Below the pieces are notes generated by a model. That model saw nothing but the letters and a program-made list of their open reading frames with translations, had not been told where the DNA came from and ran no database searches. The translations under genes were made by a program, and so were the position numbers. This document shows, piece by piece, positions 33,430 to 47,845 of a stretch of 64,000 nt of DNA; the first letter of the stretch is position 1; every line of letters begins with the position of its first letter. This DNA is from Rhodocytophaga rosea. Lineage in GTDB: Bacteria > Bacteroidota > Bacteroidia > Cytophagales > 172606-1. Location: positions 2,870,501 through 2,934,500 of the forward strand of contig NZ_CP048222.1 of NCBI RefSeq assembly GCF_010119975.1. Direction: 5' to 3'.

Positions 33430-35229
33430 ATGTTGACAGTCGAACAACTCAATAGGTCTTTGTACAACAGTAGGAACAAGGTAGAATACCTGTTAAACCT
33501 GTTGACCTACCTGAATTCTTTATTTGCTATCAGTTTACTCATTTATCAATATGGGTTTCACTTAACCCTTGAAGCCATTTCAAGAATTTACACTCTACTA
33601 AATGGAGTAGTGATTTTATTTATTATTATTTATTTAATCAGGCTCTTGTATGCCTTCCAGAGAAAGGCTTTTCTACTATACACTCTGCCAAAGACTGTCT
33701 TATTATTACTCTTACTGATAAATGGATTTGCCCCTTTCTTTTTCAATGAATCGATTCTATTTAGTTTAGCTCAAGTCTTTGGATTTAACAACTACTTAGC
33801 TTTTTACCAGCTAACCTCAAGTCTCTGCATTGTCTTACTGGTAGGCATAGAAATTTCCGCTGTAAATATCCGCATCAGCACTACCAGGCTTAAACCTACG
33901 GTGACTTTCATTAGCAGTTTTCTTTTGGTTATCAGCCTGGGCACAGGCTTTTTAATGTTGCCTGCTATGACTAACACCGCTCAATCCATGCCTTTTCTAG
34001 AGGCCTTGTTCACAGCTACTAGTGCTACCTGTGTCACCGGTCTTATGGTGGTAGATCAGGCTACTTATCTTACTTTTAAAGGACATCTGGTGATTCTATG
34101 CCTGATTCAGATAGGCGGTATTGGCATGGTCACTTTTGCTACCTTTGTTACTATTTTTTTGAGGCAAACCGTAGGGATCAAGCATCAGTCTAATATGCAG
34201 GACTTGCTCAGTACTGAGTCCTTGCTTTCTGCCCAGGGATTGCTCAGGCAAATCATCTTTCTCACCTTGCTCATTGAGACTGTAGGTAGTATTGTCCTCT
34301 TTTTCTGTTGGGGAGATTCTGTACATTTTGATAGCCTTACTCAAAAAGTATTTTTTTCTATCTTTCATTCGGTTTCAGCTTTTTGTAGTGCAGGCTTTAG
34401 TTTATACACCAATGGGCTGTATGAATTACCTGTGCAGAAAGCCTATATTTTACATCTGGTCATTGCCCTTCTGATGATTTTAGGCAGCTTAGGTTTTTCA
34501 TCATTGATGGATCTGTTTTCGATCACTTCACTCAGAGAGCGGCTTGAAAAACCATGGAAAGATTGGAAACTGAATACGAAAATAGCTGTATATACTACTA
34601 TAGTATTCATTATTTTTGGTACGGCAGGGTTCTATTTTTTAGAAAGAAATAATGCCTTAGCGCCTTTGAATGGGGTAGAGGCTATTATCGCTTCCTTCTT
34701 TCAATCGGCTACCCGCACGACAGGCTTCAATACAGTTGATATTACCCGCCTCTCAGATCCCACCCTTATTATGCTCATGTTTCTCATGTTTGTAGGGGCT
34801 TCTCCGGGTTCCACAGGAGGAGGCATCAAAACAACTACTTTTTTTGTCATCGCTGTTTCGGTGATTTCTTCTATCCGCGGCAAGAGAGTAATAACTTTCG
34901 GAAAAAGAACCATCCCTACTCCTTTGCTTTTTAGAGCTTATACCGTGATTACCTTTGCGGCTGCTTACAACTTAATAGCAACCTTTGTTCTATCTGTCAG
35001 TGAGCCAGATCTTGCCATTTTAAATGTATTCTTCGAACAGGTATCTGCCTTTGCTACCGTTGGATTAACTACCGGGATTACGCCGCAGTTGTCAACTGTA
35101 GGAAAAGTAGTGCTGATGATCTCAATGTTTTTGGGCCGGATAGGAACGCTTACCCTAGCTCTTGCCATCAGCAGACAGGTAATCAGTAATGCATATCGCT
35201 ATCCCAATGCGCACGTCATGGTAGGATAG
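33430..35229 (+). CDS. trkH: TrkH family potassium transporter
   Basis: A 599-residue polytopic membrane protein. About 150 N-terminal residues form extra membrane helices, as in other Bacteroidota Trk proteins. The four pore-loop repeats are visible: ATSATCVTGLMVVD, HSVSAFCSAGFSLYTNG, QSATRTTGFNTVD and SAFATVGLTTGITPQ. It also has the GASPGSTGGGIKTTTFF region. It moves K+ (or Na+/K+) across the inner membrane together with a TrkA-type gating subunit, which is not encoded next to it here. A palindromic hairpin 33 bp after the stop is a likely terminator. Confidence 0.93.
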   Translation: MLTVEQLNRSLYNSRNKVEYLLNLLTYLNSLFAISLLIYQYGFHLTLEAISRIYTLLNGVVILFIIIYLIRLLYAFQRKAFLLYTLPKTVLLLLLLINGFAPFFFNESILFSLAQVFGFNNYLAFYQLTSSLCIVLLVGIEISAVNIRISTTRLKPTVTFISSFLLVISLGTGFLMLPAMTNTAQSMPFLEALFTATSATCVTGLMVVDQATYLTFKGHLVILCLIQIGGIGMVTFATFVTIFLRQTVGIKHQSNMQDLLSTESLLSAQGLLRQIIFLTLLIETVGSIVLFFCWGDSVHFDSLTQKVFFSIFHSVSAFCSAGFSLYTNGLYELPVQKAYILHLVIALLMILGSLGFSSLMDLFSITSLRERLEKPWKDWKLNTKIAVYTTIVFIIFGTAGFYFLERNNALAPLNGVEAIIASFFQSATRTTGFNTVDITRLSDPTLIMLMFLMFVGASPGSTGGGIKTTTFFVIAVSVISSIRGKRVITFGKRTIPTPLLFRAYTVITFAAAYNLIATFVLSVSEPDLAILNVFFEQVSAFATVGLTTGITPQLSTVGKVVLMISMFLGRIGTLTLALAISRQVISNAYRYPNAHVMVG

Positions 35230-35547: not shown

Positions 35548-35630
35548 ATAAACAACAAAGAAATTTTCTTCTTACCCTATGTGCGAAAAAGAGAGAGCCT
35601 GACAAGTGAGAGCTAGCATGAAGTGATTTC

Positions 35631-35675
35631 TTGATTGTAATCAAGCACGAGAAGTAAAAACAAATGACATCTTTG
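35631..35675 (+). promoter_or_regulatory. FNR/CRP-like box plus -7-like box, cut from its gene by IS5
   Basis: TTGATTGTAATCAA (35631-35644) is a perfect TTGAT-N4-ATCAA palindrome. Exactly 23 nt later lies CATCTTTG (35668-35675), one base off TAnnTTTG. Together these put the box about 41-43 bp before a start site, the class II activator position. Without the IS5 the ATG of the VOC gene at 36585 would follow about 45 nt after the -7-like box. The same design precedes the VOC fragment at 37938. Confidence 0.6.
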
Positions 35676-35704
35676 TGAACAGATATGTCATCAAAATCAA
35701 TTAA

Positions 35705-36568
35705 GAGAACGTTTTGAAATATTATACTGGTTTTCTTTTAAGCAGTGTGTCAATAAAGGCTAATTGTAGCATAGCTTCCGAACTTTCTGTGCTTTTCTCA
35801 AAGTCACGGCTCAATCTACGCTTAAAATTGAGCCATCCGTAACTGCGTTCTACCACCCAACGGCCTCCTGCCGGCACAAAGCCCTTTACGCTTTCAGGCT
35901 TTTGTACAATTTCTACCTTCCATCCATAGTCTCTTTCTATCTCTTCTACAAAGGTATCTTTGTAGCCATTATCTGCTTTTAGTGTATGTAGGCGGCAAGA
36001 CTTACCCTTCAGCTTAGCTGCTAACTCATAACCGGCTGTAGTGTCTGACACATGGGCGGCTGTTACATGCACAGCCCAAGGAATACCTAAACAATCCACT
36101 GCTAGATGTCTTTTTCTGCCATTCACCTTTTTGTTGCCATCTATGCCCTTGTCTTGGGAAGTAAACTGTACAATCTTTACACTTTGACTATCAATAGCTA
36201 ACACGCTTGGCAAGGCTTGTCGGCCTGCTTTTTTTCTTTCTCTGATTGCTAAAAAAGCCAACAGCTCTTCGATGATGCCTCGCTTCTTCCACTGCCTGTA
36301 ATGGTAATAAATGGTTTGCCAGGGTGGGTATTTACTTTCCATGTTGCGCCATTGACTACCTGTAGTAAGTAGCCATAGAATAGCATTAAGAATAACACGT
36401 TTGTCATGTTTGATTTTTCTTTGGTTATCTACTACTTCCTTGATAATTTCCCACTCACAATCAGTGAGTTCGAAGAATCTTTCTTGCATAAAACTTTTTG
36501 GTTGGACACCACAAGTTTACTCACTGATTCTTTCTTTTACCCTATTTCTATCCTTTCAAAACATTCTC
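35705..36568 (-). mobile_element. IS5-family element, copy A (TNA target type)
   Basis: 864 bp with termini GAGAACGTTTTGAAA (left) and GAGAATGTTTTGAAA (complement of right). The target duplication is TAA (35702-35704 and 36569-36571). Copy B at 42264 appears identical in sequence. It inserted 16 bp before the ATG of the VOC gene and separates that gene from an FNR-like promoter region. Confidence 0.93.
35722..36489 (-). CDS. IS5-family transposase (copy A)
   Basis: A 255-residue single-frame transposase with an N-terminal DUF4096-like DNA-binding part (LTDCEWEIIKEVVDNQRKIK and SQWRNMESKYPPWQTIYYHY). The DDE core has Asp in SVLAIDSQSVKI, Asp in LHTLKADNGYKDTFVEEI, and Glu in RWVVERSYGWLNFKRRL. 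The single frame and TNA target fit the IS1031-like group of IS5. Identical protein at 42281-43048. Confidence 0.92.
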   Translation of the reverse strand: MQERFFELTDCEWEIIKEVVDNQRKIKHDKRVILNAILWLLTTGSQWRNMESKYPPWQTIYYHYRQWKKRGIIEELLAFLAIRERKKAGRQALPSVLAIDSQSVKIVQFTSQDKGIDGNKKVNGRKRHLAVDCLGIPWAVHVTAAHVSDTTAGYELAAKLKGKSCRLHTLKADNGYKDTFVEEIERDYGWKVEIVQKPESVKGFVPAGGRWVVERSYGWLNFKRRLSRDFEKSTESSEAMLQLAFIDTLLKRKPV

Positions 36569-36584
36569 TAAAATAAAATCTATT

Positions 36585-36947
36585 ATGAATTTTGCCAAAT
36601 TAATTCCTAATGCCTATTATATAGATATTAAAGACGGATTAAAACTATTTGTTGATTGTCTTGAATTTAATATGGAATATGAAGAATTGAAGTCAAAAAA
36701 TCCGTTTTGTGTACTCGAAAAGAACCAACTACAACTGTACCTGTTTGAAAATAAAGAACTAGCAAAAGAACATAATCCTGAATTTAGACTTGTAACCCAT
36801 AGTATTGATGAAATCTACAAAAAAGTAAGTTCATCACATCCAGAATTTCTACATCCAAATCTTAATAAAGTCACCCTTCGTCCCTGGGGAGCCAAAGAAT
36901 TTGCCCTGAGAGACAACCAAGTATGTATCATAATTCAGCAATGGTGA
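36585..36947 (+). CDS. VOC / bleomycin-resistance-like protein
   Basis: A 120-residue single-module VOC protein: FAKLIPNAYYIDIKDGLKLF, CVLEKNQLQLYLFENKELA, FRLVTHSIDEIYKKV, LNKVTLRPWGAKEFALRD and CIIIQQW. The RPWG-KEFA block is shared with bleomycin-binding and related small VOC proteins. It likely binds or modifies a small molecule; the substrate is unknown. IS5 copy A ends 16 bp before its ATG, so its own promoter is displaced by 864 bp. It may be silent or driven from the IS. Confidence 0.85.
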   Translation: MNFAKLIPNAYYIDIKDGLKLFVDCLEFNMEYEELKSKNPFCVLEKNQLQLYLFENKELAKEHNPEFRLVTHSIDEIYKKVSSSHPEFLHPNLNKVTLRPWGAKEFALRDNQVCIIIQQW

Positions 36948-37288
36948 ATCACTAAGCAAATATGGAACGCAATAACGAACCGATAACAAAAGCTATAAAA
37001 TATATGCTGTATACTAGGTTCTTAAAATGTGAATTATGTTTTAAAACAAATATCCAGGTTAAAAAATTATACCCCAATAATGAATCCTCGTAAATGGACA
37101 AGAGGGGAAAATGAACTCCAATATCTTTTCCCTTTCGCCTATTTTCTGTTTAATAAAACGAAAGGGCTAATTAATTTGACTACTCTAATCCTAAAGATTG
37201 TATTTGATTACTGAACGCATTGGTTTATTTTACCAATAAAGCTTATCAACCCATTAAAAAAGCTTATCCTCGTATTGCCCTTACACGG
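36948..37288. other. Intergenic between VOC gene and membrane protein
   Basis: 340 bp. A plus-strand frame at 37029-37214 (MNPRKWTRGENELQYLF part) is not convincing as a gene. Nothing else is recognised. Confidence 0.35.
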
Positions 37289-37639
37289 CTAGTGTTTATT
37301 TTTCTTTTGAAAGAATACCGTAGATACTGGCAAAAACAGCAAAACAGCAACTATTATTAAAAATATAATATGTGCAATCATTTGAGATGTTGAATTGAGT
37401 GCACCTATATAAACATGGTAAGCCAGCCAGGCAATGGCTAGCCAGCGTGCCCAACATATTCTTAAAAGCAGAAGACTTCCACAAACTATAGCTAAAATTC
37501 GCACAAACAGAACCCAAAGTAATTGGGAAACTTGCACATCCGGCTGGTAGAATTCTTGAACATGATAAGTGAATCCAATACTGCCTGCCAGAATAAACAA
37601 AATGGAAACAATAAGAATAGGAATAGGTAAATTTTTCAT
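37289..37639 (-). CDS. Four-helix small membrane protein
   Basis: 116 residues with four hydrophobic segments: IPILIVSILFILAGSIGFTY, LLWVLFVRILAIVCGSLLLL, RWLAIAWLAYHVYIGAL and MIAHIIFLIIVAVLLFLPVS. The short basic tail is FFQKKNKH. The pattern resembles small uncharacterised membrane proteins of Bacteroidota; no function is known. It lies downstream of the VOC fragment and the Crp/Fnr regulator on the same strand, so it may belong to that transcript. Confidence 0.75.
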   Translation of the reverse strand: MKNLPIPILIVSILFILAGSIGFTYHVQEFYQPDVQVSQLLWVLFVRILAIVCGSLLLLRICWARWLAIAWLAYHVYIGALNSTSQMIAHIIFLIIVAVLLFLPVSTVFFQKKNKH

Positions 37640-37809
37640 TGTACATATCAGCTGTGTATGTGGATTTTCTTTTCAATGATCCGTGGATACTCGAATAGGT
37701 TCTGGATTTATCCTTTCCAGTAACCATACTCATAGTCTTGAGCAGGCTTTGACATGCCTGTCTGGATCACCACTAGAAATAAAGACTTGAGTTGCAAAAA
37801 AATAATTTA

Positions 37810-37938
37810 TTATTCCTTATAAGACATTTTATCAGTCAAAATGCTTTCTTGAAAACCCAGGTCGAGGTAAAACTTTCGTGACAGCTCAATGTTTTTAGCT
37901 CCGATAAAAGCTCGAATGGCCTTAACTTTAAGTTCCAT
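37810..37938 (-). pseudogene. Truncated VOC-family gene (42 residues)
   Basis: Reads MELKVKAIRAFIGAKNIELS and then RKFYLDLGFQESILTDKMSY, ending in tandem TAA stops. This is the first beta-alpha-beta half-module of a glyoxalase/VOC protein; the rest is missing. It is preceded by a well-placed FNR-like box and a perfect TAnnTTTG box, so a promoter survives in front of a broken gene. Confidence 0.7.
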
Positions 37939-37960
37939 TTATTGCTTGTAAACTAAAATA

Positions 37961-38005
37961 CAAACCTAATGCTTGGCAAGGCTTTTATCGCTTGATTACA
38001 ATCAA
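37961..38005 (-). promoter_or_regulatory. FNR/CRP-like box and -7 box before VOC fragment
   Basis: TTGATTACAATCAA (37992-38005) is a perfect TTGAT-N4-ATCAA palindrome. On the minus strand exactly 23 nt separate it from TAGGTTTG (37961-37968), a full TAnnTTTG match, 22 nt before the ATG at 37938. The box overlaps the stop codon (38002-38004) of the Crp/Fnr gene itself. The spacing equals that at 35631-35675. Confidence 0.65.
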
Positions 38006-38556
38006 GAAATGATTTTTCCTTTAGCAAAACTTTCTCTGACTCTACTCATTGTTTCAGGGGTAATTTTTAGATAGGAGGCAATCCATTTAAGTGGAAAGTG
38101 TTGGATCAATGCTGCTCTGTTATCCAAGATGTATTGATATTTTTGAGTAGGTGTCAAACGATTATCAAAAAAATAAGCTTGTGCCGTTGCTTGCTGCAAT
38201 ATTTTCCCCAATTGAAGGAAAGCAGCAGATTCACCGATCAGTTCGTGTATAGATGTTATATCTAACTCTAAGATGTTACCTTCACAATAAGCTTTTATAA
38301 ATCTATCTGATGGTGTTTGAGAAATAAAACTACCTTGATTTAAAAACCACTCATGCGCTACATGCAAATCAAGTACATTTTCTTCTCCTTCATCTGTATA
38401 TTTATACTGATAAAAAGCACCTGTTAGGCTAAAAAAAAAGGATTTACAGACTTCTCCTTTATTGAGTAAAATTTCATTTTTGGAAACAGGGCGAAATGTA
38501 GTTTTACTTTCAAATAGTTTTACATCTGTATGGCTATAAACCCCAGAAATCATCAT
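38002..38556 (-). CDS. Crp/Fnr family transcriptional regulator
   Basis: 184 residues. The N-terminal cyclic-nucleotide-binding-like barrel has FRPVSKNEILLNKGEVCKSF, FFSLTGAFYQYKYTDEGEEN and FLNQGSFISQTPSDRFIKAY. The C-terminal short helix-turn-helix is LKWIASYLKITPETMSRVRE. It carries no N-terminal cysteine cluster, so it is not an Fe-S FNR; the ligand is unknown. It probably recognises the two TTGAT-N4-ATCAA boxes nearby, one overlapping its own stop codon, and so may control the adjacent VOC genes. That link is inferred from the sites, not shown. Confidence 0.88.
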   Translation of the reverse strand: MMISGVYSHTDVKLFESKTTFRPVSKNEILLNKGEVCKSFFFSLTGAFYQYKYTDEGEENVLDLHVAHEWFLNQGSFISQTPSDRFIKAYCEGNILELDITSIHELIGESAAFLQLGKILQQATAQAYFFDNRLTPTQKYQYILDNRAALIQHFPLKWIASYLKITPETMSRVRESFAKGKIIS

Positions 38557-38739
38557 ACCAATAAAAAGAACTATGTTTATGAAGATGTCAATTAAAAATA
38601 TGACGCACTTTGTTGTCAGCTAATTCGCCAAAACTAACTGATGCCGAAGCTACTTATGTATGCCCGACATAGCAAAGTATATATTGAAAGGAATATACAA
38701 AGATTATCCAAAGAGTGCAAGACCTCTTCTGTAGATGAG

Positions 38740-38770
38740 TTAAAAGAAAGGGGGAGTTAATTTAACCTCC
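38740..38770 (+). repeat. Dispersed intergenic repeat, copy 10
   Basis: TTAAAAGAAAGGGGGAG then TTAATTTAACCTCC: a well-conserved forward copy. Confidence 0.65.
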
Positions 38771-42050: not shown

Positions 42051-42263
42051 ATGTTATATTATAGTTGAGCAAGGGTGAGAATAAGGGTAGCTTTTAAAAT
42101 AGTATGGAGGGAGTACGCCTGTTGTGCGCATAGAGGCGCTTGTGTAGGGATGGGATTGTATTATTTCTCTTAAGGGTGTAATATAGGTGTATGCGGCTGT
42201 CCGTCGCTGGCATTCTCTCAGGCATATATTTTATTTTTTCTCAAAACTACAGCGCCTTTCTTA

Positions 42264-43127
42264 GAGAACGTTTTGAAATATTATACTGGTTTTCTTTTAA
42301 GCAGTGTGTCAATAAAGGCTAATTGTAGCATAGCTTCCGAACTTTCTGTGCTTTTCTCAAAGTCACGGCTCAATCTACGCTTAAAATTGAGCCATCCGTA
42401 ACTGCGTTCTACCACCCAACGGCCTCCTGCCGGCACAAAGCCCTTTACGCTTTCAGGCTTTTGTACAATTTCTACCTTCCATCCATAGTCTCTTTCTATC
42501 TCTTCTACAAAGGTATCTTTGTAGCCATTATCTGCTTTTAGTGTATGTAGGCGGCAAGACTTACCCTTCAGCTTAGCTGCTAACTCATAACCGGCTGTAG
42601 TGTCTGACACATGGGCGGCTGTTACATGCACAGCCCAAGGAATACCTAAACAATCCACTGCTAGATGTCTTTTTCTGCCATTCACCTTTTTGTTGCCATC
42701 TATGCCCTTGTCTTGGGAAGTAAACTGTACAATCTTTACACTTTGACTATCAATAGCTAACACGCTTGGCAAGGCTTGTCGGCCTGCTTTTTTTCTTTCT
42801 CTGATTGCTAAAAAAGCCAACAGCTCTTCGATGATGCCTCGCTTCTTCCACTGCCTGTAATGGTAATAAATGGTTTGCCAGGGTGGGTATTTACTTTCCA
42901 TGTTGCGCCATTGACTACCTGTAGTAAGTAGCCATAGAATAGCATTAAGAATAACACGTTTGTCATGTTTGATTTTTCTTTGGTTATCTACTACTTCCTT
43001 GATAATTTCCCACTCACAATCAGTGAGTTCGAAGAATCTTTCTTGCATAAAACTTTTTGGTTGGACACCACAAGTTTACTCACTGATTCTTTCTTTTACC
43101 CTATTTCTATCCTTTCAAAACATTCTC
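42264..43127 (-). mobile_element. IS5-family element, copy B
   Basis: 864 bp, apparently identical to copy A (35705-36568). Target duplication TTA (42261-42263 and 43128-43130). It sits in the divergent control region between the sbtA-like gene and the LysR gene, with its end 42 bp before the LysR ATG. The identity of the two copies points to recent transposition. Confidence 0.93.
42281..43048 (-). CDS. IS5-family transposase (copy B)
   Basis: 255 residues, identical to the copy A product: LAIDSQSVKI, LKADNGYKD and VVERSYGWL carry the DDE triad. The reading frame is intact, so the element is likely active. Confidence 0.92.
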   Translation of the reverse strand: MQERFFELTDCEWEIIKEVVDNQRKIKHDKRVILNAILWLLTTGSQWRNMESKYPPWQTIYYHYRQWKKRGIIEELLAFLAIRERKKAGRQALPSVLAIDSQSVKIVQFTSQDKGIDGNKKVNGRKRHLAVDCLGIPWAVHVTAAHVSDTTAGYELAAKLKGKSCRLHTLKADNGYKDTFVEEIERDYGWKVEIVQKPESVKGFVPAGGRWVVERSYGWLNFKRRLSRDFEKSTESSEAMLQLAFIDTLLKRKPV

Positions 43128-43169
43128 TTATATATTTTTATTTATTATGATATACATATACATTCATTT

Positions 43170-47686: not shown

Positions 47687-47845
47687 ATGAAAATAGGCGA
47701 AAGGGAAAATAAAATAGTTGATTACAATCATAGATGGTTATTCTATAAGCCCTTTGATTTTCAAACACGATTATTGGGCGATTTTGTCAACCTATTTCCG
47801 GACAAGACCAATATAGTTTTACGGCTTATGCTCATTTTAAAGTAA
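47687..47845 (+). CDS. Small ORF (52 residues), uncertain
   Basis: Starts MKIGERENKIVDYNHRWLFY and ends NIVLRLMLILK. It begins 20 nt after a repeat copy and overlaps, tail to tail, the small gene at 47832. It has no family match by eye. It could be coding or chance. Confidence 0.25.
   Translation: MKIGERENKIVDYNHRWLFYKPFDFQTRLLGDFVNLFPDKTNIVLRLMLILK

Follow-up and report, generated by a model that had tools for sequence, protein, structure and literature searches.

Within 64,000 nt of the Rhodocytophaga rosea genome (contig NZ_CP048222.1, positions 2,870,501 to 2,934,500; here called the window), two perfect copies of the FNR-like palindrome TTGAT-N4-ATCAA were found close to a gene for a Crp/Fnr-family regulator, designated P0001, one of them lying across the end of that gene. 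Both boxes are predicted to be class II operators of P0001, or of its paralogue at 4.36 Mb of the same genome, and this is considered very probable because of the sequence, the geometry, the conservation and the agreement between recognition helix and operator, from which we infer binding, activation and the transcription start. A regulator dimer would bind TTGAT-N4-ATCAA centred about 41.5–42.5 bp upstream of the start, and would help RNA polymerase at the Bacteroidota -7 element, TAnnTTTG, 22–23 nt downstream; from promoter anatomy, the box centre is presumed to be at about -41.5 when the spacing is 22. Site 2, which forms part of the regulator gene's end and has the TGA in its left half-site, would drive the next gene, originally one for a VOC-family protein, and site 1 would belong to the P0001 regulon as its second member and drive expression of the VOC gene at 36585.

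Site 1 is TTGATTGTAATCAA at 35631-35644 on the plus strand, the core of an extended operator ATTTC-TTGATTGTAATCAA-GC (35626..35646), and is followed after a 23-nt spacer by the -7-like element CATCTTTG (35668..35675, plus strand); the same octamer occurs at identical spacing in another locus, L181. Site 2 is TTGATTGTAATCAA on the minus strand, or TTGATTACAATCAA in plus-strand letters (37992..38005), and its -7-like element TAGGTTTG (37961..37968, minus strand) again follows a 23-nt spacer. The open reading frame (ORF) of the regulator (38556..38002, minus strand) ends TCT TGA, and this TGA is inside the site 2 box. An initial annotation of the window had described two perfect palindromes exactly 23 nt before a TTTG element, the second overlapping the Crp/Fnr stop codon, and the sequence matches this description in full.

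Sites 1 and 2 are the only perfect TTGAT-N4-ATCAA boxes in the window, in which 13 copies with at most one mismatch occur against 4.4 expected. A one-mismatch box, TTGATTACAATCAT, is present at 47718-47731. The whole genome (8.98 Mb) contains 26 perfect boxes, against 11 for the reversed pattern, so that two of them less than 2.4 kb apart are unusual. A TTTG element, defined by agreement with TAnnTTTG at 5 or more of its 6 fixed positions, was found 22–23 nt downstream in one orientation for 5 of the 26. These are sites 1 and 2, the duplicated copy of site 2, one box that precedes a cupin gene and one that follows a different Crp/Fnr gene. Sites 1 and 2 are identical at 24 of 26 positions. This stretch corresponds to an extended operator, ATTTC-TTGATT...ATCAA-G, common to most of the clade of P0001, and the agreement is accounted for by the flanks ATTTC and AAGTGC, which recur in that clade. 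The extended operator TTTCNTGATNNNNATCAAG has four exact sites in the genome (site 1, site 2, the site at the 4.36-Mb paralogue and the one before the cupin gene) and 17 with at most one mismatch, the reversed control giving 4. The operator before the cupin gene (PF07883, 52.2 bits) is located about 60 nt ahead of it, with TTCCTTTG at 22 nt.

P0001 (184 aa, 38002..38556, minus strand) was assigned to the Crp/Fnr family by profile and alignment, and its recognition helix reads PETMSRVR. The N-terminal domain is cyclic nucleotide monophosphate-binding-like (PF00027, 32.3 bits, above the cut-off of 27.5); the Crp-type helix-turn-helix profile PF13545 gave 13.4 bits, below its cut-off of 27, and the C-terminal region was covered by the alignment with relatives and by a profile match to structure 3dn7 (to position 189). 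In the oxygen sensor FNR, four cysteines hold a 4Fe-4S cluster. P0001 contains Cys37 and Cys91 only, hence such a cluster is unlikely. It scored 24.6 bits with the FNR profile NF008365 (cut-off 228) and 17.7 with the CRP equivalog NF008732 (cut-off 266), and its effector is probably neither cAMP nor oxygen, as far as sequence can tell. Upstream of the clade regulators, where an autoregulatory site would lie, a box with at most one mismatch was found in 2 of 21 cases, both about 235 nt away.

The distance between box and element was examined in 148 genomes of the order by searching for the box followed by TAnnTTTG at 9–39 nt. Among the 150 matches listed, spacing 22 occurred in 32 and spacing 23 in 8, and the other 29 spacings had a mean of 3.8 and a maximum of 10. 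In a search of 198 genomes of the phylum, with a G appended after the box pattern, which lowered the yield, spacing 22 or 23 was found in 6 of the 21 rows from outside the order (one box entering two of these rows) against 1.4 expected (binomial P 0.0017). On these sequence counts, the box-element geometry is not due to chance. A same-strand Crp/Fnr stop codon was located inside the box or at most 60 nt before it in 16 of the 40 order-wide sites with spacing 22–23, and inside the box in 10 of them. Behind boxes with spacing 22–23, DinB-like genes were found repeatedly (L134-L136, L138-L141, L144, L146, L147, L152, L153 and L157), whether or not a Crp/Fnr gene adjoined; PF12867 was matched in L134 and L146, the two scanned, and the others were recognized by eye.

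The association with regulator gene ends was evident in a best-hit set of 29 Crp/Fnr genes, that of the window included, in which a perfect box near the stop, with its first base from 25 nt upstream to 120 nt downstream of it, was present in 6 and a one-mismatch box in 3 more; 96 other ORFs gave no perfect and two one-mismatch boxes. A larger training set of 118 distinct Crp/Fnr genes was collected by similarity to P0001 and with an alignment of 20 regulators, several of them box-bearing, the scan of genome contigs with this alignment supplying the best 80 of 545 matches; the set includes the clade of P0001. Because their loci ended too early, one of the 118 regulators was left out, as were 16 control ORFs of the training set and 10 of the hold-out; some of the control ORFs are spurious frames. 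Near the stop, a perfect TT...AA dyad was found in 41 of 118 Crp/Fnr genes against 14 of 379 other ORFs. A box-like palindrome with a TTTG element at 22–23 nt was found in 44 of 117 against 1 of 374, the former value overstating the wider frequency because the set is enriched for the P0001 clade and for box-bearing queries. With the rule fixed beforehand, 5 of 58 hold-out genes matched against 0 of 65 controls, and 5 of the 9 hold-out matches were at the two expected spacings; the hold-out scores TTGAT-like boxes only, holds near-identical pairs from sister species and includes one region, L320, without a regulator. As the fraction in the hold-out is much lower, the design is common, not universal. 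Among the 44 genes with this geometry the stop codon was within the left half-site in 10 (7 TGA, 3 TAA), which is partly mechanical since a TTGAT or TTAAT arm, when read in frame, supplies a stop codon; in the remaining genes the box was 5 to 35 nt past the stop, at 5 or 6 nt in 13.

In the 117 training genes spacing 22 occurred in 23 matches and spacing 23 in 21, none were at 17–21 or 24–26, and any of 28 other spacings was seen in 12 genes. The fixed distance between operator and -7 element of a class II promoter is therefore present, and the peak at 22–23 nt in relatives bears out the FNR-like operators with class II spacing that the initial annotation had proposed. Crp/Fnr proteins can also repress, and the sites could be repressor sites or class I or III arrangements; this seems quite unlikely, for the confinement to spacings 22 and 23 is what contact with the polymerase at a class II promoter would require.

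In a tree of the 118 regulators, P0001 was in a 23-row clade (support 100/96) with sequences from Aquimarina, Cellulophaga, Pedobacter, Niabella, Ferruginibacter, Emticicia, locus L063 and others. A box with 0–2 mismatches and an element followed the regulator in all 23 genes, one of these being the window itself and another, L160, having been found via its box. The best element, sought at 18–27 nt, was 23 nt on in 20 genes and 22 nt on in 3, two of the 23 elements scoring just 4 of 6, and the stop codon was inside the box in 8 of the 23. The suggested link of the boxes to the adjacent Crp/Fnr gene, and their conservation in relatives, are thus borne out. The link to VOC genes also held: apart from the window, 11 of 22 clade members have a VOC gene behind the box, which is of the voc46 type in 8 (as the second gene in two) and in 3 of the type of which the window keeps a truncated piece. 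The next gene in 10 of the 22 belongs, by eye, to a family of about 200–225 aa, one scanned member of which was under every Pfam cut-off, and another ORF occupied this place in one. In the record of Pedobacter agri PB92 (L174, 1501-2031) the regulator has an in-frame stop, indicating a pseudogene or a sequencing error, and the box and the VOC ORF look intact. Seen from the VOC side, 38 locus records of voc46-type orthologues (1.5-kb flanks, some duplicates) showed regulator and box only at the place in the R. rosea genome itself (L045, L053) and, with one mismatch in the box, in L063; L061 has a distant Crp/Fnr gene (25%) on the opposite strand. Most voc46-type genes are therefore without the regulator-box unit.

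The type of box differed with the recognition helix. In the training set, from which the classes themselves were read off, regulators with an ET..SR helix had a [CT]TGA[TC]-N4-[AG]TCA[AG] box in 36 of 49 genes, those with ES..SR had TTA[AC]C-N4-[AG]TCAA in 11 of 20, and those with EF..SK had a CTTAAnCTA-type box in 12 of 21, the last pattern being looser than the version fixed beforehand. No helix was readable by pattern in 8 of the 118 training and 20 of the 58 hold-out genes. In the hold-out, a TGA[TC]-type box was present in 10 of 16 ET..SR genes, compared with 2 of the 42 remaining genes and 4 of 444 control ORFs; the other two classes were thin (ES..SR 1 of 4, EF..SK 2 of 10). Judged from these counts, the box type follows the recognition helix of the adjacent regulator. 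In the EF..SK regulators L204, L214, L216, L246 and L271 two tandem CTTAA-type boxes are present in the 3' flank before the TTTG element, possibly a double operator.

TTGAT-N4-ATCAA is the generic FNR consensus, and the genome has 26 Crp/Fnr-like matches, so the operators might be real and read by another, global regulator of the FNR type. We regard this as unlikely, because a box type that changes with the adjacent helix (only the ET..SR class being well supported in the hold-out) and flanks, ATTTC and AAGTGC, that recur in the clade point to the neighbouring regulator. Reading of the sites across modules by the 4.36-Mb paralogue is a different matter, for its helix and that of P0001 are nearly identical; either could bind site 1, and such cross-reading may occur. 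A correlation of helix positions 180 and 181 with operator bases has been described for HcpR, DNR and NnrR (Rodionov et al. 2005, PMC1274295).

The likely former target of site 1 is the intact VOC-like protein P0002 (120 aa, 36585..36947, plus strand). Its matches to VOC and bleomycin-binding-like proteins (NF033156, PF00903), like those of downstream genes, are distant, and it reaches no curated VOC cut-off (Glyoxalase_7 14.2 of 23.6; ble 26.8 of 140), so far under these values that no resistance or enzyme function is claimed. In a Chitinophagaceae metagenome-assembled genome (L176), the box of a P0001 relative is followed in third place by the gene of an orthologue (65%), which scored 20.0 of 30.1 with Glyoxalase_2, and another (58%, with a stop) comes after a voc46-type VOC gene in L339; together with the four exact extended operators, these gene orders tie site 1 and P0002 to the regulon. 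Orthologues (E 1e-10) were detected in 3 of 394 other genomes of a phylum sample, with a perfect box in none. Since the two sites match at 24 of 26 positions and 37161-38766 is in fact duplicated at 7.70 Mb, site 1 might instead be a piece from the end of a duplicated regulator gene and not an evolved operator. That origin is distinctly unlikely: the similarity ends close to where the extended operator of the clade ends, the spacer and -7 element differ from those of site 2 yet the geometry is kept, and the orthologue of the gene of site 1 is behind such a box in L176.

An insertion of the IS5 family (864 bp, 35705..36568, minus strand, with a TAA target duplication; transposase 36489..35722) is located between the site 1 box and the VOC gene at 36585, and would lie about 25 nt past the transcription start predicted for site 1. 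It is young, on sequence comparison: the genome contains 11 full-length copies at 100% (rounded, that of the window included) and 12 at 82–86%. A second copy in the window (42263-43128) is letter-identical to 35704-36569. Behind site 2, the VOC gene is reduced to a 42-aa N-terminal piece (37810..37938, minus strand), longer relatives of which are present behind the same box in L160, L170 and L174. It is followed by a 116-aa ORF (37289..37639, minus strand), membrane-like by eye and without Pfam match, which is kept in the duplicate copy.

The module occurs three times in the genome, in the window, as a duplicate at about 7.70 Mb (L047) and as the paralogue at 4.36 Mb (L046). The duplicated segment (37161..38766, strand not assigned) was found by sequence comparison to be 87–89% identical to the 7.70-Mb copy, which keeps its own box, TTGATTGCAATCAA, and in which an istA/istB pair of the IS21 family (istB PF01695, 203.6 bits) interrupts the regulator gene. 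At the ends of the duplication (37161-38766 in the window, 1588-5848 in L047) a AAAGGGGGAGTTAATTTAAC-like motif recurs; it may be a dispersed repeat through which the duplication arose. The 4.36-Mb regulator (45% identical to P0001) is intact, with CTGATCTGGATCAA directly past its stop and then an intact VOC gene (PF00903, 34.7 bits, cut-off 20.6). At 8.942 Mb (L129, 2215-2228) a perfect box is located 26 nt past the stop of a Crp/Fnr-type gene with the helix PETVSR, and CAACTTTG follows at 22 nt.

With one VOC gene truncated, the other cut off by IS5 and the duplicate regulator split by the IS21-family element, the module would be in decay here; as both of its outputs are broken, the window copy is probably decaying, and the 4.36-Mb copy may keep the function. 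The proposal that each box leads to a VOC start therefore stands in part: the gene at 36585 is intact and separated from its box by IS5, and 37938 opens a 42-codon remnant. The local regulon suggested by the initial annotation is not supported as a working one, given these two defects and the five other P0002 loci without a perfect box. Nor is the pattern merely local, as it recurs at Crp/Fnr gene ends in the phylum and in two more copies in the genome.

Several observations weigh against class II operators read by P0001 or its paralogue. Site 1 adjoins no regulator gene, and of the 40 order-wide sites with spacing 22–23, 24 (the split 7.70-Mb copy included) have no Crp/Fnr stop within 60 nt. 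The -7 element of the 4.36-Mb copy, CATTTTTA, is weak (4 of 6), and no perfect box is present in the retrieved flanks of the five other loci with P0002 orthologues (L338-L340, L036 and L037), the last two having one-mismatch boxes about 0.9–1 kb upstream. Under the strict rule of box plus element the hold-out yielded those 5 of 58 genes only. The helix and box classes come from the set in which they were counted, with kinship ignored, and L187, which has a PES helix and yet a TTGAT box 72 nt past the stop, is an exception to the code.

Some boxes, such as those of L014 and L017, belong to longer hairpins with a T run behind them and might serve as terminators as well, which likewise counts against an operator. 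Palindromic and at gene 3' ends, the boxes might then be transcription terminators rather than operators. This is very unlikely: in the window the stems are short and A+T rich and lack a T run (no dedicated terminator scan was made), and site 1 is about 400 bp past the nearest upstream ORF of annotated length, which ends at 35229; a terminator predicts neither a fixed 22–23 nt to a TTTG element nor a box type that depends on the helix.

If boxes and elements are indeed class II operators and their promoters, many uncharacterised Bacteroidota Crp/Fnr regulators would bring their own operator and target gene with them, so that DNA specificity and first target would be readable from sequence, and an activator promoter rule for Bacteroidota would follow: operator, 22–23 nt, TAnnTTTG. 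By analogy with LacI, such units might even be sealed, the operator for the next gene being built into the end of the activator gene and the bound activator also keeping the polymerase from completing that gene, with stop-less messages, decay through transfer-messenger RNA and self-limitation as the outcome. We give this extension only a small chance, and the overlap with the stop codon makes the feedback directly testable.

At class II FNR and CRP promoters of Escherichia coli, TTGAT-N4-ATCAA is located near -41.5, and E, S and R occupy the FNR contact positions of the helix. The type of the operator, its predicted position and the E/S/R of the helix are the same here; different are the Bacteroidota TAnnTTTG element, the operator at the end of the regulator's own gene and the lack of the four-cysteine set. 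The best solved relative of the regulator alignment is 3dn7, a cyclic nucleotide binding regulatory protein (PDB; positions 1-189, E 1e-56). In the HcpR, DNR and NnrR regulons, as treated in PMC1274295, regulator genes adjoin their targets, including Bacteroides hcp; these are other subfamilies with other motifs (e.g. GTAAC-N4-GTTAC), and the passages on them mention neither a stop-codon overlap nor a fixed spacing to TAnnTTTG. Judging by its title, a study of local regulation in the LacI family (PMC2978694) used the neighbourhood of regulator and target for a recognition code in this other protein family. When LacI occupies its operator, transcripts of the LacI gene remain incomplete and become targets of SmpB-SsrA (Abo et al. 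2000, as cited in PMC3493969); LacI represses, whereas the bound regulator would here activate the next gene, and with this precedent the self-limiting loop can be tested. No gene-end operator was described in the titles and abstract beginnings retrieved by searches of open-licence literature, which is weak evidence of novelty. The terms Crp, Fnr and palindrom are absent from the main text of a study of F. psychrophilum promoters (PMC9723704). Thus, local regulation, FNR-like operators and the correlation between helix and operator are already known, and what appears to be new is an operator recurring at or inside the stop codon of the regulator's own gene, at a fixed distance from TAnnTTTG.

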